Source of the DNA: Alistipes sp.
Lineage (GTDB): Bacteria > Bacteroidota > Bacteroidia > Bacteroidales > Rikenellaceae
Assembly: GCA_017465605.1 (NCBI GenBank)
Contig: JAFTVW010000020.1
Location: 1-59,078 of the forward strand
DNA: 59,078 nt
Direction: 5' to 3'
The stretch's first letter is position 1. Each line of letters opens with the position of its first letter. Shown piece by piece: positions 5,400 to 26,861 of this stretch. A program made the position numbers and the translations under genes. The notes beneath the pieces were generated by a model. That model saw only the letters and a list, made by a program, of their open reading frames with translations. It searched no databases and had not been told where the DNA came from.

Positions 5400-5465
5400 C
5401 GTAGCCACAGGGCGAGAGCAGAAATATGTGGTAATAAGCCCATCAAAGCCTCTATGCGAAGCCGA

Positions 5466-7031
5466 ATGGAAAATATTAATTGGCATTTGAGCCAAATGCC
5501 GATGCTCAGAGTGCTACTGCCCATTGTGGTAGGAGTGATTATAGCCGACCGAGTGACATTCCCGTTGTGGAGTGTGGCGGTCGGTTTTGTTTTGTTGCTC
5601 GGTGTGGCGTGGTGGCTGAGGACTCGTACTATGGCCGACATATATCTGTTTGCAGCTTTGATGCTGCTTGGTATTATGGCCGTTGAGTTGCGAAGAGGTG
5701 ACCCTGCATTACCAACCGAGATAGCAGAGAAGGAGAACGTTGTAGAGATTGCCATCGACCGCGTGACAAGCCGCCGCGAGGGTGTGGTGTTGTGCGATGG
5801 GCGTGTGGTGGCCTATCGGCAGAGTGTCGGCGAAGCAGCGTCGCAGGCTGCCAATTTTGATGTGCGAGTTGTAGCCGATTCTGCGGTGGGAGTGCAGATT
5901 GGTAGCCGTTTGGTGGCTAAGGTGCGCCTAAGACCATTCAATCCAGAATCTGAGAATCGCTACGAAGCCTATATGGCTCGGCGTGGTGTTGTGGGGCAGG
6001 TATGGCTAAGAGATTATGATGTTATATATCACACGCTCTTGGATAAGAGAGTGGTGAGGTGGCTGCACGATAAAGCCTTGCAGAGACTCAACAGGCTATC
6101 GCTTGATAGCGAGGGTCGTGCTGTGGTCGAGGCGATGACAATAGGCGAGAGGGCCTCGATTAGTCGCTCCTTGCGCGAGGAGTACGCCCGTAGTGGCTCG
6201 GCTCATCTTTTGGCGGTGTCGGGTCTGCACGTTGGATTTATTTTTGCGATAATCAATCTCTTGCTGCTCTCTTTTGCTTTGCTACGACACGGGCAGTTGT
6301 TGCGTGTAGTACCTGCCGTAGCGGCCATATGGCTCTATGCGGCTGTTGCGGGAGCATCGCCCTCGGTGGTGCGTGCTGCGGTGATGTTTACGCTATTGCA
6401 ACTTGCATTTCTCTTGTCGGCACGAACTCACGCCCTTAATTCGTTGGCTTTTACGGCAAGTGTGATGATTATATGGAATTCCTCGCTCATACACGATGTG
6501 GGATTTCTGCTTTCGTTCTCTGCGGTGGCTGGTATTGTAGTCTTTGGTGTGCCGCTGGCATCGTGGCGAAGGGTTACAGTGCGACTATTTGAGCGTAGGT
6601 TGGTATATCAGAGCTGGCGCAGGGAGTTAGCGCAACGCCTACTGCTGGCTGCGTGGCGTGCATTGGCGATGAGTGTTGCGGCTTCGGTGGTGACGATGCC
6701 TCTTACGGCCTATATGTTTGGCGTGGTTTCGTGGTGGAGTATAGTTGTCGGGCCGTTGATGATTCTACTCGGTATGGCAACCGTAAGTGTGGCAATGGTT
6801 TGGGTGTTGATGCCAATAGGAGCATTGGAGGGCGTGGTGAGTTGGGTACTCGACCTGCTTACCCGCGCGATGAATGGTATTGCCGAATGGTGCGCACAGA
6901 GCCATTGGCTTATCTATGAGGGATATATGAGTAAAGGTGTGTGCGAGGGTTGCTATCTGCTTATCGTGCTTTTTGCGTTGCTGTTATGGAGCCGACCCAA
7001 AGGCGATAGAGAGCACACCATTACCTTGTAA
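5466..7031 (+). CDS. comEC: ComEC/Rec2-family DNA uptake channel protein
   Basis: About 521 aa. The N-terminus has three hydrophobic helices, then a DUF4131-like soluble domain (about 75-180). A multi-helix competence domain follows (about 225-500), starting with the family signature Ala-His-Leu-Leu-Ala-Val-Ser-Gly-Leu-His-Val-Gly. ComEC forms the inner membrane pore through which single-stranded DNA enters during natural transformation. The metallo-beta-lactamase domain found at the C-terminus of many ComEC proteins is missing, a common short form in Bacteroidetes. Another in-frame ATG lies 12 nt upstream at 5454. The stop codon is one base from the convergent hslR stop. Confidence 0.85.
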   Translation: MENINWHLSQMPMLRVLLPIVVGVIIADRVTFPLWSVAVGFVLLLGVAWWLRTRTMADIYLFAALMLLGIMAVELRRGDPALPTEIAEKENVVEIAIDRVTSRREGVVLCDGRVVAYRQSVGEAASQAANFDVRVVADSAVGVQIGSRLVAKVRLRPFNPESENRYEAYMARRGVVGQVWLRDYDVIYHTLLDKRVVRWLHDKALQRLNRLSLDSEGRAVVEAMTIGERASISRSLREEYARSGSAHLLAVSGLHVGFIFAIINLLLLSFALLRHGQLLRVVPAVAAIWLYAAVAGASPSVVRAAVMFTLLQLAFLLSARTHALNSLAFTASVMIIWNSSLIHDVGFLLSFSAVAGIVVFGVPLASWRRVTVRLFERRLVYQSWRRELAQRLLLAAWRALAMSVAASVVTMPLTAYMFGVVSWWSIVVGPLMILLGMATVSVAMVWVLMPIGALEGVVSWVLDLLTRAMNGIAEWCAQSHWLIYEGYMSKGVCEGCYLLIVLFALLLWSRPKGDREHTITL

Positions 7032-17405: not shown

Positions 17406-17436
17406 TTGACAAATACTTTTTGATGTATTATATTTG
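17406..17436 (+). promoter_or_regulatory. Promoter of the phage-like cassette
   Basis: TTGAC at 17406-17410 and TATATTTG at 17429-17436 give a good match to the Bacteroidetes -33/-7 pattern. No comparable element is visible in the larger gaps inside the cassette (21532-21623, 22815-22866), so this promoter may drive the whole run to 26861. Confidence 0.7.
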
Positions 17437-17776
17437 CACTATCGTTAGCTCGCAATGCTTTCCAAGAAAATGGCTCTATATGGCAGCGTAGGCTCTATTT
17501 ATAGGGAGGATTGCAATCGTGGCGCGAATGATTACTAATAGATAAATTTTTGAACTTTAATTTACTCTGAAATATGAAACGTTATTTATTAACATATCAA
17601 CATTGGCCACCAAGAGGTTTTCAACAAACCTCTGCAACGCCCTAATTCGCACAGGATAGGTGGATTATAATCTGCGGGGCAGATTGTATTAACAAAAATT
17701 AACATCAATTAACAAACTTTTCAACAAATGGCTCTCGTCAATGTGGCGGGTGGCCTAAACCTTTACACTCTAAACT
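17437..17776 (+). promoter_or_regulatory. Long structured leader of the phage-like cassette
   Basis: About 335 nt of predicted 5' leader. It contains two perfect hairpins: AGAGGTTT (17613-17620) / AAACCTCT (17626-17633), and AATCTGC (17669-17675) / GCAGATT (17679-17685). Neither has a T-tract. A GCAAT (17452-17456) and ATTGC (17510-17514) pair could close an upstream domain. A 23-codon reading frame lies at 17574-17645, with the first hairpin inside it. The arrangement suggests attenuation or translational control, but no known riboswitch is recognised. Confidence 0.45.
17574..17645 (+). CDS. Possible 23-codon leader peptide
   Basis: ATG at 17574, stop TAA at 17643-17645. The peptide is Met-Lys-Arg-Tyr-Leu-Leu-Thr-Tyr-Gln-His-Trp-Pro-Pro-Arg-Gly-Phe and then a short polar tail ending Ala-Thr-Pro. 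The first leader hairpin overlaps its last third, so ribosome position could alter the fold. It is too short to be sure it is translated. Confidence 0.3.
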   Translation: MKRYLLTYQHWPPRGFQQTSATP

Positions 17777-18181
17777 ATGAACCGAGAAAAATTAACTACT
17801 GCCATCAAGACCATCGCCGAGCGTGATGGCTACAACTTCTACTGCGATGGTGAAGCACTGATGCCACGATTCGTTAGCAGCTATCCTGCTTTGTGGCTCA
17901 CCCCTCCGCGTTTTGAATCGATGAAGGGGCGCAATCACGGCAAAATCATCTACTCCGTAAAGATGCACGCAATGCAAGACGGCCTGAAATACAGCACCGA
18001 GCAGCGTAATGCAGCGTGGGCGAAGATGGAAGAGGATTTGGTGAATATCTTTTCGCAACTATCGGAAGAGGATTTTGTGGTTGCAGTCGAGCAGTTGAAG
18101 GTGCAGCATAGCTCGGCCACGATGACAAACCACGCCGAGGTGGCGGCAACGGCTACGGCCAACGTAATAACATTCTTTTAA
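17777..18181 (+). CDS. Phage-cassette protein of unknown function (134 aa)
   Basis: 134 aa, no signal peptide or membrane helix, mixed alpha/beta. A Tyr/Phe/Trp-rich first half (residues 18-65) is followed by a helical part (78-112) and a flexible Ala/Thr-rich tail ending Ala-Asn-Val-Ile-Thr-Phe-Phe. No family is recognised. Its place as the first gene of a structural operon, and its size, would fit a tail-completion or connector protein. It is followed after 15 nt by the 323-aa gene. A 31-codon frame from ATG 17728 overlaps its start in another frame and is probably not translated. Confidence 0.65.
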   Translation: MNREKLTTAIKTIAERDGYNFYCDGEALMPRFVSSYPALWLTPPRFESMKGRNHGKIIYSVKMHAMQDGLKYSTEQRNAAWAKMEEDLVNIFSQLSEEDFVVAVEQLKVQHSSATMTNHAEVAATATANVITFF

Positions 18182-18196
18182 CCTAAATTATACCTT

Positions 18197-19168
18197 ATGA
18201 AATTTACATCTATACCGAAATCCTACTCCTCGTATGCCGAGCCGTTAGTGTATGCGTTTGATACTCAGTCGGAAAAGGCTGATGTTGAGGTGCGTATAAT
18301 AAATGCTACGACCAATGAGGTGATAGGACGAAAAATGCTCTACGGGGTGAGCGAAGGGCAGATTGACATAGCTCCCTATCTGCGACGTGCGACAAGTGTG
18401 CAACTGCCTGATGCGGTGGAGTATAGTCAGATTCTTGAAACAGGCGTACAAATTAAAGTGAAGGTTGAGGTGGCGGGCGTAACTTCCTCATCTCGCAACT
18501 TTATAGCTGCCAAACTCCCCGCTTCGACCTATTTCACCCTGCTCACCGACCAGCTTCACCGCCGAACAATGACCCGCGACGAGTTCGACGTCATAGGATT
18601 CTACTCTTCGCCCGATGCTGTGGTCGAGGTCGTGGTGGAGGTTTGGGGTAAGAGTTACGGATACCTCACATTGGAGCAGGCCACAGGTGGGCAGTGTGCA
18701 GTTGCCGTAACGGCTCTCGATTTTGACGATGGGCCAGAGGATTTGAAGGTCTCGTTCAAGGTTGATGGCGAGGTGCTGGCCGAGGTGGAGTATGAGTTGA
18801 AAGAGAATCTGCGTGGAGCGCGTCGTCTGGCGTGGCTCAACAGCTCGAACTCGCTGGAACTCTACACCTTCCCGATGCGAAAGAGCATACTCATCGAGGC
18901 TACCCGTCGCCATATTGAGAGCCAGCTGGGTCGTGAGGCTGCCGAGGTAGAGCACGATGGCGAGTTGAAACTTTTGTCGGCATACGAGCCGCAATCTCAA
19001 CTCGAAGCCATCAGCAAGATTTTCACGAGCCAGCGAGTGTGGCTCATCGAGCGAAATGTTTGTCGAAAGGTGGAGTTGCGAGCAGAGCGAGTATTTACTC
19101 TGCCCTACGATGAATTGAGCTTGGTCGAGGTTGATATTTGTGCCGCAGAGGAGGGCGTGAGGTTATGA
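18197..19168 (+). CDS. Putative phage structural protein, beta-rich (323 aa)
   Basis: 323 aa, soluble. The first 210 residues are almost entirely short alternating beta-strands, like an Ig-like or jelly-roll domain repeated. The C-terminal third (about 215-323) contains Ala-Arg-Arg-Leu-Ala-Trp-Leu-Asn-Ser-Ser-Asn-Ser-Leu-Glu-Leu-Tyr-Thr-Phe-Pro and ends in more strands. This arrangement is seen in tail-tip or baseplate-associated proteins next to hub proteins in Bacteroidetes phages. Function is inferred from context only. It overlaps the next gene by 4 nt (ATGA), which implies translational coupling. Confidence 0.6.
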   Translation: MKFTSIPKSYSSYAEPLVYAFDTQSEKADVEVRIINATTNEVIGRKMLYGVSEGQIDIAPYLRRATSVQLPDAVEYSQILETGVQIKVKVEVAGVTSSSRNFIAAKLPASTYFTLLTDQLHRRTMTRDEFDVIGFYSSPDAVVEVVVEVWGKSYGYLTLEQATGGQCAVAVTALDFDDGPEDLKVSFKVDGEVLAEVEYELKENLRGARRLAWLNSSNSLELYTFPMRKSILIEATRRHIESQLGREAAEVEHDGELKLLSAYEPQSQLEAISKIFTSQRVWLIERNVCRKVELRAERVFTLPYDELSLVEVDICAAEEGVRL

Positions 19169-21531
19169 TTACGCTGATGATTGATTCGGTAAGGTGCGAT
19201 ATGCCTGAGTCGGCGGCGGCTATCAAGGGAGTGGGTTGTTTCGATGTGGCGGCACTGAAAGATATTGAGGCGTGGCGTGCGGGCCAAAGCATCAATGTCG
19301 AACTTCCCTCCACTCCCACAAACGACAAGGTGATGGGGTATGCCTTCGATGCCACGACTGCCGAGCGATTCAACGCTCAAAGGCATCAAGCTGTGGTGGC
19401 GGTTGATGGGGTGGAGGTGGCAAGCGGGGTTGCATATCTGCTCTCGGTGGAGAGTTGCCCCAGCGGTGCGCGTAAGCAGGGTAGGCTTTTGTATCGTCTG
19501 CGTATAACTTCGGGTGCGGCATCGTGGGCCCAAAGTGCCGCACAGACCAAGCTGAGCGAGATGTTTGGCGATTATGAGGTGACGCTTGATGGTCAGACTA
19601 TCGAGCAGAGTTGGCAGTCGCAGAGCCTTGTGAAGTTTCTTCCCGTACACCACGACAATTACGATGCCCCGTACGATGGAGAGTCGCTCTATGCTCCGCA
19701 GCGTGTGATGAGTGTTGATGATTACTTCCCGTTTATTCGAGTGGCTGACATCGTGCGTGGAATTTTCGAGGCATCGGGCTACACGCTTGAAAGCAGATTC
19801 TTTGCCAGCGAGGAGTTTCAGAAGTTGCACATCGGCGGTCGTTATCCCTCGTCGGGCGGCTCTCAGGCACGTCTGACGGCTTCGACCGGATTCTGTGCTG
19901 GCCGCAGCAAGGAGGTGTCGGCTACGGCCGATAGCTTCGGTAGAGTTTATGCCACGCCCCTTATGCTGGTCAACTCGGTGGGAAATTTTGTTGATACCGT
20001 CTCGGCTGCCGATGGTGAGGGACTCTACAACAATGGCTCGGTGCTTACTATTGATGATGTGGGAGTGAGCTATGCCCCGACTACAAGCGTAAACGTAAGT
20101 TTCGAGTTTGACATCGCCTACACAACCGACTATCGTATCCTCTCGCGTGAAAGATTGCAGGGTTTTGATGGCGTGTATATCGGCTCGGATTGTCAGATGC
20201 AGCATCGTTTGGTGAATCCATTTACCGACCGACGTGGGTCGTTACAACCCAACACAGCGTATCGTTGCGTGGTGTTCGACCACTCTTCGGGTGCAACCTA
20301 TCGCGTGGTGTGCCGCTATGGCTCGACCACGACAACGTTAGCCGAGTTTTCGGCTCGCACCGCAAGTGTGGTAGTGCCATTGGAGGCATCGGGCGCAGAG
20401 TGTGAATTGCAGGTGAAGGTGTCGGAGAATGAGTACCAAACCTATGGCGGCGATTGGGCACTGTATGATGGATACGTTACGGAGCGAGGTACGACCGAGG
20501 TGGAGTTGAAGCTCCGCACGCAGCCTCAGAAGATGAGCCCTTCGAGCCGATACAATTTCAACCGAATGTATCTCTATGGAGCGGAGGCAGGACAGCAACT
20601 TACGCTTAGTCGAGATTGCCGCTTGAAAGCTATTTTTACGGCTTCACCATCAATCGGCTCGGCACTCAGCTTTGCCGATGTGGCGGCTTACGATGTGACA
20701 CAAGCCGAACTGTTGACCTCGCTCGCCGAGATGTTTAACCTCAGAATTTTTAGCAACGAGGCGGCCCGCAAGGTCTATATCGAGCCTTACGATGAGTTTT
20801 ATTCGAGCGAGGTGGTGGATTGGAGCGACAGGCTGCTACGCTCGGAGCCTATCAAAGCTGAGGATATGGCTGCGGGGTGTCACCAAATGCGTACTCTCAC
20901 CTATCGCTCGGAGGTGGAGGGTGCGGTGGAGCGATTCAATCGCGAGTGGCAGACCACGTTGGGCCGTTGGAGTCGCACGACAGATTCGCTGGTGGCCCTG
21001 CAAGGCGAAAAACGCGAGGTGCATAGTCTCTTCTCGCCCACTTTGTCGGTGGCAGGAGTGGTGGCATCGGCTCCGTCGGCTTGGCTCTTGGAGGTGGGTG
21101 ACCGTGATGCCGATGCCCTTGCCGATGGAGCGTTGCGAATAGTGCGTTACGAGGGGTTGAGGACTCTGCCTGCGGGTCAGAGGTGGGGATTCCCTTCGTA
21201 TGGAACGAGTTATCCGTTGGCGGCCTTTCATCTGCCTGAGGAGTTTACGCTCTGCTTTGAGGATAGGGATTCGGTGAAGGGACTGCATCGCTACTACGAC
21301 AATGAGTGGCGCAGAGATGAACTTCGTCGCACGTTGAGCGTGAGTCTGCTGCTTTGGCCTGAGCAGGTAGCTGCGCTTTGGGAGTATGGCTCGCAAAATC
21401 CTAATTTGGGCTCGACCTTCCAACTCCTATCGAGCGGTGAAAGTGCGAAGTATAACTTGCAATCAGTCGAAAGCTACGATGTGGGGAGCAGCGTGGCGCG
21501 ATGCAGATTCGTGCGTTGCTTGAATGACTGA
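19165..21531 (+). CDS. Large phage structural protein, baseplate hub/tail-tip-like (788 aa)
   Basis: 788 aa from the ATG at 19165, which overlaps the preceding stop; an upstream alternative at 19138 would give 797 aa. No signal peptide. The N-terminal 180 residues resemble a hub-type beta domain (Val-Glu-Leu-Pro-Ser-Thr-Pro-Thr-Asn-Asp, then Gly-Val-Ala-Tyr-Leu). The middle is beta-rich. Near residue 520-550 the segment Leu-Leu-Thr-Ser-Leu-Ala-Glu-Met-Phe-Asn-Leu-Arg, followed by Val-Tyr-Ile-Glu-Pro-Tyr-Asp-Glu-Phe-Tyr, resembles hub/tail proteins of Bacteroidetes phages. It is the biggest protein of the cassette. A host-surface or particle-vertex role is possible, but no tail tube or tape measure accompanies it. 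Confidence 0.55.
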   Translation: MITLMIDSVRCDMPESAAAIKGVGCFDVAALKDIEAWRAGQSINVELPSTPTNDKVMGYAFDATTAERFNAQRHQAVVAVDGVEVASGVAYLLSVESCPSGARKQGRLLYRLRITSGAASWAQSAAQTKLSEMFGDYEVTLDGQTIEQSWQSQSLVKFLPVHHDNYDAPYDGESLYAPQRVMSVDDYFPFIRVADIVRGIFEASGYTLESRFFASEEFQKLHIGGRYPSSGGSQARLTASTGFCAGRSKEVSATADSFGRVYATPLMLVNSVGNFVDTVSAADGEGLYNNGSVLTIDDVGVSYAPTTSVNVSFEFDIAYTTDYRILSRERLQGFDGVYIGSDCQMQHRLVNPFTDRRGSLQPNTAYRCVVFDHSSGATYRVVCRYGSTTTTLAEFSARTASVVVPLEASGAECELQVKVSENEYQTYGGDWALYDGYVTERGTTEVELKLRTQPQKMSPSSRYNFNRMYLYGAEAGQQLTLSRDCRLKAIFTASPSIGSALSFADVAAYDVTQAELLTSLAEMFNLRIFSNEAARKVYIEPYDEFYSSEVVDWSDRLLRSEPIKAEDMAAGCHQMRTLTYRSEVEGAVERFNREWQTTLGRWSRTTDSLVALQGEKREVHSLFSPTLSVAGVVASAPSAWLLEVGDRDADALADGALRIVRYEGLRTLPAGQRWGFPSYGTSYPLAAFHLPEEFTLCFEDRDSVKGLHRYYDNEWRRDELRRTLSVSLLLWPEQVAALWEYGSQNPNLGSTFQLLSSGESAKYNLQSVESYDVGSSVARCRFVRCLND

Positions 21532-21623
21532 TGTGAGGTGATAACGCAAGTAGTCAACCAACAAACAAAAATTAGAGTAAAAATTAATTGAAAAACCCTA
21601 AAAACAAACCAATTAGAAAATTT

Positions 21624-22814
21624 ATGCAAACCAAAATCACAATCAGAAACGAAGCTCAAACCTGCTATATCGACATCGAGGGTGTGATAGGTGTCTCGGA
21701 GCAGAGCCAATTTGAAAATGCGACGTCGAGCGTGGCTACGTTTGAGGCATTTCGTCAGGAGGTGGAGCGTATAAAGCGTGTGGCAGCGACCTCGGTGGTG
21801 GTGAATATCCGTTCAACGGGTGGCGATGTGAACGATGCATTGCTCATCTACGATGCATTGCAGAGTCTCGATGCCAGAATCACCACACGTTGCTATGGCT
21901 ATACGGCCTCGGCTGCTACGATTATTGCGCAAGCTGCAAATGCGGGTTGTCGTGAGATTTCGAGCAATGCACTCTACCTGATTCACAACTCCCACTGCTC
22001 GATAGAGGGTAACGCCTCGTCGTTGGAGGCTCGTGCAGAACTGTTGCGTAAGACCGATGAGCGTTTGGCTTATCTCTATGCTCAACACTCTGGACAGCCG
22101 GTCGAAACATTTGTCGCGCTGATGGCCGAGAATAGTGGTGAAGGTCGCTGGCTGACAGCCGAGGAGACCGTAGAGGCGGGCTTGGCTGATAAGATTATTG
22201 ATGGATTGATGGTGGGAACGCTCTTGCCCGAACAGAACGATGCGCAAGATAATCCGTCGGATACTTCGAGCCAAAGTGGCGAAGTAGCGGCACAGAGCGA
22301 CCTGCCGCAAAACATCTCAAAAAAGGAGCTGGCGAAGGCGGTCGATTCGGCTGCCGCAGCGGTGGTACGCTATCTGATGCGTCGCTTCTCGTATCGTTGG
22401 GAGAAGTTGGTGGAAGGCTGGCGTGAGAAGCGCGAGAAGCGTGAGAATGAGCGAAAGAGTGAGCGAGAAATCAAGCGTGAGCAGAAGCGTCAGTCGAAGC
22501 AGACGAGTGGCGACAAGGCAGGTTCTGCCGATGTTGCAAGTTCTGCCGAAGTTGCTTGTCCGACAGGTACTGCTTGCCCGGCCGAAACCGTTCACTCAGC
22601 AGAAACCGCTCACTCTGCTGAAACAATCCATTCTGCCGAGCAGACTCCGCAGGCTGCTGTGAGTAGATCGGTGGTGGCATTTGATAGCGGTCAGCGACTC
22701 TACAAACGTAGCGAGGTGAAAGCTGTCGAGGACCCCTCGATGAATCGCCTGCGCTCGGCGGCAAACCAGCAGGCTTATGCCGATGATGTGCGAGCATTCA
22801 ACACATTGAGATAA
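21624..22814 (+). CDS. ClpP-fold head maturation protease with scaffold-like C-terminal tail
   Basis: 396 aa from ATG 21624 (a TTG at 21588 is less likely). Residues 10-195 form a ClpP/S14-like domain: Asn-Ile-Arg-Ser-Thr-Gly-Gly-Asp-Val near 61-69, nucleophile Ser96 in Tyr-Thr-Ala-Ser-Ala-Ala, His121 in Leu-Ile-His-Asn-Ser-His, and Glu-Ala-Gly-Leu-Ala-Asp at 184-189. By eye the usual triad Asp position falls on Gly174, next to Glu173. The tail (about 235-396) has a strongly charged Arg/Lys/Glu helix and Ser-Ala-Glu-Thr repeats, as in self-cleaving protease-scaffold fusions. It stands immediately before the capsid gene, the usual place for a prohead protease. Confidence 0.8.
   Translation: MQTKITIRNEAQTCYIDIEGVIGVSEQSQFENATSSVATFEAFRQEVERIKRVAATSVVVNIRSTGGDVNDALLIYDALQSLDARITTRCYGYTASAATIIAQAANAGCREISSNALYLIHNSHCSIEGNASSLEARAELLRKTDERLAYLYAQHSGQPVETFVALMAENSGEGRWLTAEETVEAGLADKIIDGLMVGTLLPEQNDAQDNPSDTSSQSGEVAAQSDLPQNISKKELAKAVDSAAAAVVRYLMRRFSYRWEKLVEGWREKREKRENERKSEREIKREQKRQSKQTSGDKAGSADVASSAEVACPTGTACPAETVHSAETAHSAETIHSAEQTPQAAVSRSVVAFDSGQRLYKRSEVKAVEDPSMNRLRSAANQQAYADDVRAFNTLR
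22560..22650 (+). repeat. Short tandem coding repeat in the protease tail
   Basis: The coding sequence repeats a GCxGAAACC..TCACTC-type 18-nt unit, giving Pro-Ala-Glu-Thr-Val-His-Ser-Ala-Glu-Thr-Ala-His-Ser-Ala-Glu-Thr-Ile-His-Ser-Ala-Glu. It follows similar looser repeats from about 22520. Such repeats expand and contract readily and mark a flexible linker. Confidence 0.75.
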
Positions 22815-22866
22815 AATTATTTACCCTAAAAGAAAACTTATTGAAAACATTAAAAACCAAAACATT

Positions 22867-23862
22867 ATGTCAAATATTATTGTAAACCCTAAGAACTATA
22901 CAGGTCACGAACTCGATACAATTTTCTTCCGTCCGTTGCTTTCGGGCCCTTCGGCAGAGTCGCTCGGAATCCGTATTCTCTACAATATGCCGATGCCAAC
23001 TGTGGTACAGATGTGGGACCACTCGGGCAACGTGCTTAGCCCATTCGATGAGGCGTCGGCGTGGAGTGGCGGAACAAAGACTACTCATTATCAGAAGACA
23101 ATCCCGATGTCGCGTGTGAAGGCCGAAAATGCCTTCTCGGCAAGCGATTACTTCTCGACAATCTTCGAGCTTATCACCAATCGCTCAGATGTGAATATGG
23201 AGGATTTGACCGGCACAGAGTTGGAGGTGGCCGAGACCGAGTTGTTCCGCCGTGCCATTGCCGAGAGTATCCGTATGAACTTGTGGTTGGGCGACAAGGG
23301 CGGAGAGTTGGAGACTGGTTATACCAGCTTCGATGGTTTGTTGAAGATTATCAACGAGCGTGTGAAGAATGACGACTTCTATTACGCTAAGGGCGATTTG
23401 GATTCGCAGTTGAGCAGCTACACCGTGCAGGAGATTTTCGATTTGATGATTCGCAAGGCTTCGCCACGCTTGAAGGGTCTCTACAATGAGGGTGAGGTGG
23501 CATTCTTCGTATCGCCTATCATCTATTCGTTGTATGAGTCATTCCTCGACAACAACTTCGGAACGGCTGCCTATACCGATACGCAGACTGGTCGTCGTAC
23601 GTTGATGTATCACGGATTCCCCGTAATCGAAATCAACCTCGACCCCGCAATCTCTTCATCGAAGCTCTCGCAGAACTTCTGCTTCTTTACCGACCGTCGC
23701 AATCTCGTGATGGCGGTGAATACGGCCGATAGCCCCGGCTCGGAGGTGCGTATGTGGTACAACCCCGACCAGATGGAGAATCGTCAGCGCGCTGTGTTTG
23801 CAATCGGTTGCGAGATTTTGGACGATGAGCTGGTGTGCGCATATACCAATGTGACAGAGTAA
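22867..23862 (+). CDS. HK97-fold major capsid protein
   Basis: 331 aa, soluble. It starts Met-Ser-Asn-Ile-Ile-Val-Asn-Pro-Lys-Asn-Tyr-Thr-Gly and has Phe-Phe-Arg-Pro-Leu-Leu near residue 20. A long central helix region contains Ala-Ile-Ala-Glu-Ser-Ile-Arg-Met-Asn-Leu-Trp-Leu-Gly-Asp near 130. The C-terminal domain has Phe-Phe-Val-Ser-Pro-Ile-Ile-Tyr-Ser, Gly-Phe-Pro-Val-Ile-Glu-Ile and Arg-Arg-Asn-Leu-Val-Met-Ala-Val. These features and the position after the protease match capsid proteins annotated in Bacteroidetes phages. The cleavable delta domain is absent, consistent with scaffolding being on the protease. It is probably the most abundant product of the cassette. Confidence 0.75.
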   Translation: MSNIIVNPKNYTGHELDTIFFRPLLSGPSAESLGIRILYNMPMPTVVQMWDHSGNVLSPFDEASAWSGGTKTTHYQKTIPMSRVKAENAFSASDYFSTIFELITNRSDVNMEDLTGTELEVAETELFRRAIAESIRMNLWLGDKGGELETGYTSFDGLLKIINERVKNDDFYYAKGDLDSQLSSYTVQEIFDLMIRKASPRLKGLYNEGEVAFFVSPIIYSLYESFLDNNFGTAAYTDTQTGRRTLMYHGFPVIEINLDPAISSSKLSQNFCFFTDRRNLVMAVNTADSPGSEVRMWYNPDQMENRQRAVFAIGCEILDDELVCAYTNVTE

Positions 23863-23874
23863 AAAAGGTGAGCA

Positions 23875-24324
23875 ATGACCGAAAATAAGTTTTACAAACC
23901 CATAGGTGGTTTGGTGCGTGCCGAGCTCTTCCACCCTTCGCAGATTGGTGCGATAGAGTATGCGATATGGGGTACGGGCATCGAGGTAGGGTTGGTGGAC
24001 GATGCTTCGAGTTATGTCGAGCAATTTTCGGCCGACAACCGACAGGTGAGCGTGTTGCACACGCTCACCCTCTGCTCCGACCGCAATCAGGCGCAGGAGT
24101 GGTTTGACGAGGAGTTTCTTCGTCGTGCGGCAGCTGATGGCGTAGTCGCTTTGGTGGAGTTGGCTACGGGTGAACAGATAAAGGTGGGCTGGTGTAGGCG
24201 TATGGGATTCGAGCAGGCTCTGCGACTCGAAAAACTCGAATTTGATTCGGGCGAGGGGTTGAACGATTCACCGCGAGTGAAGCTTGTGCTTAGTTGCCGA
24301 GATGTTACATCGGCTCTTAAATAA
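23875..24324 (+). CDS. Phage-cassette protein of unknown function (149 aa)
   Basis: 149 aa, soluble, mainly beta-strand with one helix at about 75-90 (Gln-Glu-Trp-Phe-Asp-Glu-Glu-Phe-Leu-Arg-Arg). No family is recognised. It is placed between the capsid and portal genes, which are normally in the opposite order, so it may be a head-decoration, connector or tube-like component. Its stop codon overlaps the portal start (TAATG), so the two are likely translationally coupled. Confidence 0.65.
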   Translation: MTENKFYKPIGGLVRAELFHPSQIGAIEYAIWGTGIEVGLVDDASSYVEQFSADNRQVSVLHTLTLCSDRNQAQEWFDEEFLRRAAADGVVALVELATGEQIKVGWCRRMGFEQALRLEKLEFDSGEGLNDSPRVKLVLSCRDVTSALK

Positions 24325-25571
24325 TGAGTAAAATTATGAATGACAATAAGAGAGAAACAAAAACAAAGAGCCTTGTGGCTGTGGGTAACCGTACTGTGGA
24401 ACCTCTGTTTGGAGTGAGTGGAAGCGTGGTGCAGAGCGATAAATTTTGGCGATGGGGCGACGACAATATGATGCCATATGCCCTCTCGCTTATGTCGCGT
24501 CGCTCGACCACACATCGACGTATCATAAACGACAAGGCCGACTACATAGCGGGCAAAGGTTTTTCGTTTGATGAGAGCGAGCCTTTGCTTGCGGCTTTGG
24601 TGCAGCGTGCCAATGGTGAGGGTGAGTCGCTCAGAGATATTATCAGCCGTTTGGCATTCGATAAGGCGTTGATGGGAAATGCATTCTTGGAGATTGTGAC
24701 CGATGCGAACCACTCGTTTCTGTCGCTATACCATCAAGATGCGTCGCGTTGTCGTATAATGCGTGATTCGCAGCACGTTATGATGCACCACGATTGGAGT
24801 GCCTTCACACCCTCCGATGCACGTCAACTGCCGCTCTATCCGCTCTTCGAGGAGCAGCCCGATGGCTCGTTACGCTCGGTGGTGCATTACAAAGAGTATG
24901 AGCCGATGTTTTCGCACTACGGAGTACCGAAGTATATTGCGGGTATGGGAGTGTCGGCCATTGCCTATAAGACCGATTGCTGGAATATCTCGCGTTTGGA
25001 TAATTCGTTCCAGCTATCGGGCGTGATGATGCTCGATGCTTCGGCAGAAAATGAGTCGGAGGCCGAGCGTATAGTGCGTGCTGCCGAGAGTAAATTTGCA
25101 GGAAATCCCGGGCAGGTGATGTTTGTAATCAGGGAGGGAGCCGAGAGCGACAATTCGCGTTTTATACCCATCGAGTCACGCAACGAGGGCGATTGGAGTA
25201 AACTGCACGACCAAGCAACGGGCGATATAGTGATTGCTCACTCGTGGTTCCGCTCATTGAGTGGATTGGACTACTCGTCGGGATTCAGTGCAGAGCGAAT
25301 ACTTCACGAATACGAGGTGGCACTCAATACGGTGATTTTGGCTGAGCAGGAGGAGTTGATGACACCAATCAAGCGTGTGATACGGGAGATTGTGGGGATT
25401 GACTCTTCGTCGCTCGATATAATCAACCGTCCGCCTACACGCTCGAAACCTATATATATGAAAGTGTGGGAGGCTCGCAAGGCCGATGGGTTGGAGTATG
25501 ATGCTTCGGACGAGCGTCAGCAGTGTTACCTCTCGGAGATAACCAAGTATAATGTAACCAAAATAAATTAG
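24324..25571 (+). CDS. Phage portal-like protein
   Basis: 415 aa. The N-terminal part has Lys-Phe-Trp-Arg-Trp-Gly-Asp-Asp-Asn-Met-Met-Pro-Tyr and Thr-Thr-His-Arg-Arg-Ile-Ile-Asn-Asp-Lys-Ala-Asp-Tyr-Ile-Ala-Gly, the entry segment of Bacteroidetes phage portals. The central part holds a beta-rich wing and a long helix. The C-terminal half has Arg-Ser-Leu-Ser-Gly-Leu-Asp-Tyr and Ile-Leu-His-Glu-Tyr-Glu-Val-Ala-Leu-Asn-Thr-Val-Ile, as in the clip and crown region. Portals form the dodecameric ring at one capsid vertex through which DNA is packaged. No terminase gene, the portal's usual partner, is present in this window. Confidence 0.75.
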   Translation: MSKIMNDNKRETKTKSLVAVGNRTVEPLFGVSGSVVQSDKFWRWGDDNMMPYALSLMSRRSTTHRRIINDKADYIAGKGFSFDESEPLLAALVQRANGEGESLRDIISRLAFDKALMGNAFLEIVTDANHSFLSLYHQDASRCRIMRDSQHVMMHHDWSAFTPSDARQLPLYPLFEEQPDGSLRSVVHYKEYEPMFSHYGVPKYIAGMGVSAIAYKTDCWNISRLDNSFQLSGVMMLDASAENESEAERIVRAAESKFAGNPGQVMFVIREGAESDNSRFIPIESRNEGDWSKLHDQATGDIVIAHSWFRSLSGLDYSSGFSAERILHEYEVALNTVILAEQEELMTPIKRVIREIVGIDSSSLDIINRPPTRSKPIYMKVWEARKADGLEYDASDERQQCYLSEITKYNVTKIN

Positions 25572-25583
25572 TCGCAGAGAGTT

Positions 25584-26057
25584 ATGAAACAGATAATTAC
25601 GCCTTCCGAAGTGAAGGCTCTGGCATTTGCCGATGGTGAGTATCTTGCATCAGAGGTGATAGCTGTGGCCGATATAGATGCGGTTATAGAGCAGTGGATT
25701 TTGCCCGTTGTGGGCGAGGGTTTATTAGAGGCTGTGGCCGAAGGAAGCTATACGGAGATGGTAGAAAACTATCTGAAACCCGCAATTGCGGCCTTTGTGC
25801 GCTGTTTGGTGCAGCCTCGATTGAATACGGTGACGGGGCAGGCGGGTTTGGCTGTGCCTGTGGGTAGCTATCGCAAGGCGGCTGATGAGCAGGCTCGCAA
25901 GGAGCTATCCTCGTCGCTTATGGTCAGGGCAAAGGCATTACGACGAGCGTTGTCGGGGTATTTGGAGAGCCACTCCGACCAGATAGCGGAGTATGACCCC
26001 GAGCAGAATATCTTAAATCGTTGTAGTTGTTATGGAGGTGTTGTACAAATACATTAA
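25584..26057 (+). CDS. DUF6712-like head-tail connector protein
   Basis: 157 aa, mostly helical. It begins Met-Lys-Gln-Ile-Ile-Thr-Pro-Ser-Glu-Val-Lys-Ala-Leu-Ala-Phe and contains a helical core with Glu-Asn-Tyr-Leu-Lys-Pro-Ala-Ile-Ala-Ala-Phe-Val-Arg near 70-82 and Ala-Asp-Glu-Gln-Ala-Arg-Lys-Glu near 110. Proteins of this type (DUF6712) accompany portals in Bacteroidetes phages and are likely connector or adaptor subunits below the portal. Its 3' end overlaps the holin gene by 26 nt. Confidence 0.7.
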   Translation: MKQIITPSEVKALAFADGEYLASEVIAVADIDAVIEQWILPVVGEGLLEAVAEGSYTEMVENYLKPAIAAFVRCLVQPRLNTVTGQAGLAVPVGSYRKAADEQARKELSSSLMVRAKALRRALSGYLESHSDQIAEYDPEQNILNRCSCYGGVVQIH

Positions 26058-26457
26058 TGGTTGCGTGGCAGGGCTGGTGGCCCTGTTCACGCCACTCGTG
26101 CCGCTGGTGTGGTGCGTGGTGGGATTCATAGGATTTGATTTTGTGACGGGTGTGATGGCCTCGCGTGTGGAGGCTCGCAGAGCTGGGCAGGCGTGGTATT
26201 TGGAGAGCCGCGAGGCGTGGCGTACGGTAGAGAAGTTGGGGTTTACGGTTGCTGCTCTGTGTATGGCCTACACGATAGATGTGTTGGTGCTGGATTTTCT
26301 TGCGCTCAATCTGACAAAACTCTTTGCAGGTTTTGTGTGTGGAGTGGAGATGTGGTCGTTCATTGAAAATGCCTGCCGTATAAGCGATGCTCCACTGCTA
26401 AGACACATTCGTCGTGTGGTGCGTCAACGTATAAAAGAGGAGGTGAAGCGAAAATGA
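26032..26457 (+). CDS. Phage holin-family membrane protein
   Basis: 141 aa with three hydrophobic helices (about residues 11-45, taken as two close segments, and 62-95). Between them is the family stretch Phe-Asp-Phe-Val-Thr-Gly-Val-Met-Ala-Ser-Arg, then Ser-Arg-Glu-Ala-Trp-Arg-Thr-Val-Glu-Lys-Leu. The C-terminus is strongly basic (His-Ile-Arg-Arg-Val-Val-Arg-Gln-Arg). This matches the Bacteroidetes holin family, which permeabilises the inner membrane so that lytic enzymes reach the wall. The next gene overlaps by 4 nt (ATGA). Confidence 0.75.
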   Translation: MEVLYKYINGCVAGLVALFTPLVPLVWCVVGFIGFDFVTGVMASRVEARRAGQAWYLESREAWRTVEKLGFTVAALCMAYTIDVLVLDFLALNLTKLFAGFVCGVEMWSFIENACRISDAPLLRHIRRVVRQRIKEEVKRK

Positions 26458-26861
26458 GTAGAGGAATAGAGAATTGCAATCCCGGAAACATTCGTCGTTC
26501 GAGGGTGAGTTATAAGGGCGAGGTGCACCCCTCACAAGATAAAGCCTTCAAGCAGTTTGAGTCGATGGAGTGGGGATATAGAGCTATGTTTGTGTTGCTC
26601 GATACCTATCGGGTGAGATATGGGCTCTGTACGTTGCGCGAGATGATTTCGCGTTACGCTCCACCTGAGGAGAATCATACGGCACTCTATATCGATGCTG
26701 TGTGTGATGCGACAGGAATAGGGGCCGATGAGCCGCTTAACACTCGTTGTAGGGAGGATATGGTGCCTGTGGTGGCTGCTATGTCGAGAGTGGAGAACGG
26801 TTGTGCGGCCAATCGTAGGGAGGTTGAACGAGGTTTTGATTTGACTTGCTGGGATTGTTAA
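26454..26861 (+). CDS. P5-like structural/lytic protein
   Basis: 135 aa, no signal peptide. The N-terminus Ser-Arg-Gly-Ile-Glu-Asn-Cys-Asn-Pro-Gly-Asn-Ile-Arg and the following Phe-Lys-Gln-Phe-Glu-Ser-Met-Glu-Trp-Gly-Tyr-Arg-Ala match the family annotated as structural protein P5 in Bacteroidetes, related to phage muramidases. Several Cys residues cluster at the C-terminus (Cys-Trp-Asp-Cys). Together with the holin it could form a two-gene release module. It is the last gene of the cassette. No clear intrinsic terminator follows. Confidence 0.7.
   Translation: MSRGIENCNPGNIRRSRVSYKGEVHPSQDKAFKQFESMEWGYRAMFVLLDTYRVRYGLCTLREMISRYAPPEENHTALYIDAVCDATGIGADEPLNTRCREDMVPVVAAMSRVENGCAANRREVERGFDLTCWDC

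Follow-up and report, generated by a model that had tools for sequence, protein, structure and literature searches.

Gene transfer agents (GTAs) of the RcGTA type in Alphaproteobacteria are, according to the portions of two accounts available to us, domesticated, vertically kept, phage-derived systems that occupy several loci and include lysis genes (PMC11841831, PMC7947584). The BaGTA of Bartonella is also a phage-derived particle, and its recipients import DNA via ComEC, ComM, ComF and DprA, as stated in the available part of the source (PMC6899734). In the gut bacterium Faecalibacterium, the FpGTA is described, in the available portion of a 2026 study, as a two-operon agent with a small structural set and no identifiable tail (PMC12946183). 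Here we describe a ten-gene cassette with traits in common with these agents, located at positions 17777-26861 of a 59,078-nucleotide stretch of an Alistipes sp. genome (assembly GCA_017465605.1, contig JAFTVW010000020.1, positions 1 to 59,078 of the forward strand; hereafter the window). The cassette is almost certainly part of a domesticated particle system, and very likely one whose motor is the large terminase (TerL) encoded elsewhere in the same genome. Taken as a whole, it is probably the operon for structure and lysis of a DNA-packaging, GTA-like particle that the Rikenellaceae have domesticated and inherit vertically, its motor being separated in this genus; such a particle, we infer, would package and transfer DNA.

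As far as the available parts of those sources allow comparison, the cassette differs from the RcGTA type in belonging to another phylum and another phage lineage, in having its TerL unlinked behind a LexA/CI-like repressor, and in having no tape-measure-like gene at its expected place. Its likeness to BaGTA is one of phage derivation, and its link to ComEC is one of gene neighbourhood. FpGTA carries TerL in the capsid operon with the tail-lysis genes apart, whereas in Alistipes TerL is apart and the tail-lysis genes lie with the capsid. FpGTA also has particle and DNA evidence, whereas the Alistipes system, in this respect also unlike the RcGTA type, is known from its genes alone.

Genes of the cassette

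Ten collinear open reading frames (ORFs) occupy the + strand from 17777 to 26861, with small overlaps between g2 and g3, g6 and g7, g8 and g9, and g9 and g10; the intact, collinear, partly overlapping set described in an earlier note on this DNA is thus real. A portal query of genome_contigs gave 106 confirmed relatives, the best 80 of which were kept as loci, some cut by contig ends; all 80 are from Alistipes, Tidjanibacter, Rikenellaceae or Bacteroidales. Presence of each gene is given below for these 80 loci, and intactness for the matches found in 85 loci.

Gene g4 (21588..22814, +) encodes a ClpP-fold head maturation protease with a charged C-terminal tail (PF00574, 1e-28; phrog_94, 5e-40); 72 of its 80 matches have no internal stop and eight of the 80 alignments cross one. 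The major capsid protein is encoded by g5 (22867..23862, +), intact in 84/84 matches. For the window protein by itself this call is weak (phrog_11320, 2e-4); it rests on its 27 aligned family members, 20 of which match phrog_1623 "virion structural protein" and five phrog_212 "major head protein". The portal gene, g7 (24324..25571, +; phrog_11226, 1e-18), scores 34.7 bits against PF04860, under the 39.1 cut-off of that family, and its frame is intact in 83 of 85 loci, the others being L011, with an internal stop, and L001, cut by the end of the stretch. Next are g8 (25584..26057, +), which encodes a DUF6712 connector/adaptor-like protein (PF20459, 30.3 bits, cut-off 25) and is intact in 84/84 matches, the holin gene g9 (26032..26457, +; PF05105, 5e-11; matched in 67/80 loci), and g10 (26454..26861, +), encoding a P5-like lytic protein (phrog_873 endolysin, 2e-40; 73/80 loci). 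The protease, portal, DUF6712, holin and lytic assignments of the earlier note are therefore backed by Pfam or PHROG profile matches. Tailocins and other headless particles have tail genes without head genes, and this option was ruled out by the portal, protease and capsid genes of the cassette.

Gene g1 (17777..18181, +; 134 amino acids) may be tail-terminator or connector-like, judged from its position; it has a tblastn match in 35/80 loci and is intact in 37/37 matches. The products of g2 (18197..19168, +; 323 amino acids; 69/80 loci, 70/70 intact) and g3 (19147..21531, +; about 794 amino acids; ATG at 19147, alternative TTG at 19138; intact in 76/77 matches) are putatively distal-tail-like and tail-hub-like, respectively, and that of g6 (23875..24324, +; 149 amino acids; 44/80 loci, 48/48 intact) would be head or tail-tube-like. 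PHROG and Pfam scans gave no function for g2, g3, g6, o95 (a small ORF next to TerL) or the tape-measure-like protein of the phage relative L140, both described below, so the labels "tape measure", "hub" and "tube" were given by the size and place of the genes. PDB profile searches with the capsid, the portal, g1, g3 and g6 returned nothing usable.

Codon frequencies of the cassette correlate with those of ten other window genes (0.82), and its G+C content is 52% vs 48% outside. It is flanked by what we take to be rsmH on one side and a phosphate-permease-like gene on the other.

Transcription of the cassette probably starts at a promoter at 17406..17436 (+; TTGACAA-N16-TATATTTG); position 17406, where the earlier note had its region begin, is the exact first base of this conserved element. 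Of the 65 loci with enough upstream sequence, 60 have a slightly relaxed form of the pattern ahead of the cassette (the exceptions being L005, L047, L049, L051 and L085); it occurs in 0/63 downstream control stretches, and 64 times in total in the 1.29 Mb of loci, both strands counted. The strict pattern, with which other unlinked parts of the system were sought, has two matches in the whole of the window's own genome: that of the cassette and one on the minus strand (L167:6346-6376; G000:C58:126345-126375) ahead of a 124-amino-acid regulator-like ORF. Between promoter and g1 lies a leader (17437..17776, +), for which no Rfam family reached its gathering score.

Conservation and inheritance

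The six genes g2, g3, g4, g5, g7 and g8 are all present in 69/80 loci, and the synteny comparison proposed in the earlier note found them in identical order in 69/69. The laboratory strain A. montrealensis kh20 (L039) is among the carriers of the cassette. The portal gene was found in 172/180 genomes of the genus (68/70 good ones), as a single match in 166 of the 172, and in 131/150 genomes of the family (96/100 good ones), covering 17 of 22 genera; g3 is present in 125 of the 150, four of them weakly. When the remaining 292 genomes of the order were searched, 4 gave a match to the portal profile, none of them belonging to the family. Compared with the sister species (L006), the ratio of nonsynonymous to synonymous substitution rates (dN/dS) is 0.035-0.173 across the ten cassette genes; three host genes nearby give 0.03-0.04. 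The medians, each taken over 2 to 25 close pairs, span 0.08-0.34; of 41 such pairs 25 entered the calculation, and a misaligned pit control gene was dropped.

Phage-derived capsid, portal and protease genes are thus kept intact by the host, and the cassette is vertically inherited as a host trait, both being marks of a GTA. The domestication proposed in the earlier note is strongly supported by this retention in genus and family, by low dN/dS and by trees resembling that of RpoC (below). An old, decaying prophage remnant, with an unrelated terminase elsewhere in the genome, would explain that replication, integration and tape-measure genes were not found. It would also suit the stops seen in the TerL of G185 and the portal of G239 and those flagged in 15 of the listed portal matches outside the genus, although six of the seven that could be checked have them among the final residues of the matched part. 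Such decay is already contradicted by dN/dS values well below 1 for every gene, as the earlier note had argued from intact frames, and with intact frames in nearly all loci, a conserved promoter and family-wide retention the remnant is extremely improbable.

The two stops, in single copies, may reflect decay or misassembly. In the own genome, rpoC (L231), an essential gene, contains one internal TAA, and this assembly therefore probably holds base errors.

The packaging motor

A search of the whole own genome (96% complete) with PF03237 gave one match above cut-off, a 503-amino-acid TerL on contig C53. The earlier statement that there is no terminase is accordingly true of the window and untrue of the genome, and the unlinked motor that the earlier note offered as an option exists, in so far as this stand-alone TerL has a matching distribution. 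No other terminase was found in the own genome with PF03237 or phrog_2, the terminase families searched; a single weak phrog_2 match (24 bits) was rejected as an ORF that we take to be PhoH. PDB profile matches of TerL itself (TAL-effector repeats and one phycobilisome linker) were taken as chance.

TerL is preceded by a 95-amino-acid ORF (o95) and by a divergently transcribed repressor with helix-turn-helix and Peptidase_S24 (LexA/CI-like) domains. Its host neighbours are presumably 2-oxoacid oxidoreductase subunits, a permease, a peptidase-like gene and TsaD. Among 21 TerL loci, the repressor is present in 20, the exception being cut by a contig end, and o95 also in 20. Motifs that we take to be those of the ATPase and nuclease are kept in 16/16 aligned TerLs, and the Ala-Gly site and catalytic Ser and Lys of the repressor in 20/20; dN/dS is 0.074 for TerL, 0.016 for the repressor and 0.20 for o95. 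GTAs have a small terminase that lacks a DNA-binding domain. No such gene was recognised here: neither o95 nor the 88-amino-acid ORF before TerL in L168 has an informative match, o95 having no credible one in Pfam. A palindrome, TTCA-N4-6-TGAA, occurs in 11/19 repressor-o95 intergenic regions (0.3 expected by shuffling) and is likely the operator of the repressor.

TerL was found in 169/180 genomes of the genus (68/70 good ones; single match in 155/169) and in 134/150 of the family (96/100 good ones; 18/22 genera). The 150 family genomes divide into 128 with both portal and TerL, 13 with neither, three with the portal only and six with TerL only (Fisher p 7e-12, uncorrected for shared ancestry or unfinished genomes), and genera g2, g10, g12 and g22 (eight genomes) have neither. 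A TerL is thus available for head filling, as in a GTA, and would act on this portal.

The motor is linked to the structural genes in other genera. TerL is clustered with the capsid, portal and gene g8 in 5/5 fetched genomes of genera g8 and g14 (L168-L172), with the protease between in 4/5 and gene g3 absent or weakly matched. In genus g20, three of four fetched genomes (L175-L177) have the repressor, o95 and TerL about 4 kb ahead of g1, and the fourth has them on another contig. TerL is 7.6 and 9.6 kb behind gene g8 in two genomes of genus g9, and about 0.2 Mb away in G187. With TerL inside the capsid cluster in two other genera, dN/dS far below 1 and trees that follow RpoC, the element was split, not broken. 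The earlier note would have given up its reading for a terminase beside the cassette in relatives and a copy here simply deleted; what was found is a TerL that is relocated and intact.

Trees of portal, TerL and RpoC were compared for 28 genomes of eight genera, two of 30 being left out for partial RpoC. Mantel correlations are 0.86 (portal-TerL), 0.87 (portal-RpoC) and 0.82 (TerL-RpoC), with 0/2000 permutations as high, and the trees share 14, 14 and 16 of 25 splits, respectively. Within the genus (15 genomes), the correlations are lower, 0.65-0.78, values reached in at most 2/2000 permutations, and some branches disagree, as would be expected from occasional recombination. These data also bear on a proposal of two independent domestications, in which a head-tail particle and a separate TerL-repressor module serve different roles. 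The two loci are indeed unlinked in this genus and have different promoter elements, and G137 holds the TerL module only, whereas linked clusters with congruent trees in other genera and joint absence in four sampled genera make two separate origins quite improbable.

In one comparison of sister species (L092:9655-11166 vs L145), dS is 0.26 for TerL, 1.1 for the neighbouring o95 and 2.1 for the repressor; the low TerL value may be a sign of recent interspecies recombination.

Phage ancestry and the tail

Two IMG/VR contigs, from temperate phages, show the lineage from which the cassette descends. L139 (portal 50% identical) carries protease, capsid, a small gene, portal and a g8 homologue, and by look also fibre-like, holin-like, lysozyme-like and integrase-like genes. 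L140 (portal only 37% identical) lies in a 42-kb record with a linked TerL (PF03237, 69 bits). Its order of transcription is a small-terminase-like gene (by look), TerL, proteins of 246, 145, 183, 481 and 666 amino acids, a 704-amino-acid protein that is tape-measure-like by look, protease, capsid, a 184-amino-acid protein and portal. ClpP protease, capsid, small gene and portal follow one another in the cassette as they do in both phages, and the cassette shares with L139 also the g8 homologue and the holin-like and lysozyme-like genes; it differs from L139 in the integrase-like gene, and from L140 in the linked TerL and the small-terminase-like and tape-measure-like genes. The earlier note had read the gene order, hub proteins first and portal after capsid, as unlike that of ordinary prophages, whereas agreement with L139 and L140 shows that this order is inherited and lends that argument no support.

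Gene g3 locally matches the 666-amino-acid L140 protein that precedes the tape-measure-like gene. In 76 loci the gap from g3 to g4 is at most 313 bases, with a 91-amino-acid ORF inside it in at least 17. No tape measure would fit into so small a gap, and in these 76 cassettes the tape-measure-like gene has therefore left its ancestral place; the search covered this gap, and the gene could lie elsewhere in the genome.

A domesticated particle that does not transfer DNA would fit this arrangement in part. Cells might lyse to release it as a killing or signalling agent, or it might be a shell for protein cargo, with TerL kept for another purpose or for a filling that is not delivered. No tape-measure-like, small terminase or receptor-binding gene was identified, and lysis genes are present. 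Against it, TerL and portal share presence, absence and phylogeny and the TerL motifs are kept, and since a shell that never packages DNA needs neither protein, their retention counts against such a shell. In genera g8 and g14, moreover, g3 is missing or weak, yet TerL, capsid and portal remain together in 5/5 genomes, with the protease between in four. We regard a particle without transfer as unlikely.

Neighbouring genes

The window holds a homologue of comEC, which encodes a DNA uptake channel, some 10 kb upstream of the cassette (5454..7031, +; tblastn 36%); the L043 homologue matches PF03772 (Competence). In 35/72 loci comEC follows the cassette on the same strand at a distance of at most 1.5 kb, narrowing to 2-70 bases in 22 of these, and mqnA lies before the cassette in 30/62. 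Since the loci share ancestry, the adjacency of comEC counts as one association, not 35, and this suggestive neighbourhood may be no more than an association.

Location and flanks also bear on whether the cassette is a phage satellite or helper-dependent element spread by a resident phage. Capsid-forming satellites have an integrase and a mobile, patchy distribution. The cassette has a compact structural set and its location differs between species, as a satellite's might. On the other side, no homologue of the L139 integrase was found in the window, where other integrase and repressor families were judged from reading the ORFs, or in the 80 loci, whose flanks were searched for that integrase family only. 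Pfam scans of the ten cassette proteins, TerL, the repressor and o95 gave no integration or replication genes, which agrees with a GTA. The cassette has a single portal match in 166/172 genomes, is near-universal in the genus, follows the RpoC tree and is flanked by ordinary host genes, with many shared sites (the 35/72 with comEC and 30/62 with mqnA among them). It thus displays neither of the two satellite features, and a satellite origin is very improbable.

Proposed mechanism

Under the GTA-like reading, DNA damage or a similar signal would lead to self-cleavage of the repressor and free TerL. The capsid, protease, portal and connector would form proheads, which TerL, lacking a recognisable DNA-choosing small subunit, would fill with stretches of the host chromosome. 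Release would then fall to the holin and the lytic protein, and the particles would bear the hub proteins and, since the phage relatives' tape-measure-like gene is missing from its place, a very short tail at most. Recipients would import the particle DNA, perhaps via ComEC. A more elaborate version is held tentatively and is possible rather than probable: a family-wide Bacteroidota GTA with separate switches, a damage-sensing repressor on the motor, tape-measure-less delivery by a bare hub, and an operon that in roughly half of the Alistipes loci studied is joined to comEC, such that production and uptake would be coupled.

Several points weigh against a GTA-like particle. The evidence consists of genes, and neither particles nor packaged DNA nor transfer have been seen. 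Genes g1, g2, g3 and g6 have no informative family match in the Pfam and PHROG scans, and no gene was recognised as a small terminase. In some genomes one part stands by itself: G137 (99% complete; L207) has the repressor, o95 and TerL without portal or g3, and genus g15 (one genome, 57% complete) has TerL only. Within the genus alone, genomes without the portal are not preferentially those without TerL (p 0.40), both being near universal. Real internal stops occur in one TerL (L185) and one portal (L177). A slightly wider form of the palindrome occurs before the cassette at chance level (3/67 upstream regions vs 4.4 expected); a common operator was therefore rejected, and common control of the two loci is unsupported. 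Finally, in the available text of the gut virus-like-particle study, 23 of 25 GTA-like packaging events are assigned to named Gram-positive families, Rikenellaceae is not among the families given such events and occurs once, as abundant in total DNA, and Alistipes is never mentioned (PMC12946183).

In its available text, a 2024 review lists GTAs of Alphaproteobacteria, Brachyspira, Desulfovibrio and Methanococcus, and the string "Bacteroid" is absent from it (PMC11841831). No account of the element turned up in searches of open-licence PubMed Central papers, preprints excluded, on GTAs or domesticated or defective prophages of Alistipes, Rikenellaceae, Bacteroidetes or Bacteroidota. If the GTA-like reading is right, this common gut family has had a DNA-packaging particle of its own from a time before its genera diverged, and the Bacteroidota gain a gene transfer agent. 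Gene flow among Alistipes would have a route by way of genes now filed in virus collections as viral fragments. The reason for which hosts retain such particles would become directly testable, since the motor could be removed without touching the capsid operon and the genera that lack both parts would be natural controls.

Cassette records in other collections

IMG/VR stores cassette fragments (L002-L005, L135-L138) as viruses, though they are host core genes; L178 matches one of these, L005, at 96-100% and is apparently from the same species. Two human faecal scaffolds labelled "Bacteriophage sp." (L141, MT838805.1; L142, MT838736.1) hold parts of the cassette together with the host genes comEC, a methyltransferase gene and mqnA. 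They might be packaged host DNA or bacterial carry-over, and they were not used as evidence of packaging, their origin from virus-like particles being unconfirmed in the part of the source available. In genus g7 (L184) as in genus g21 (L182) the cassette is next to rpoC, a location common to more than one genus.

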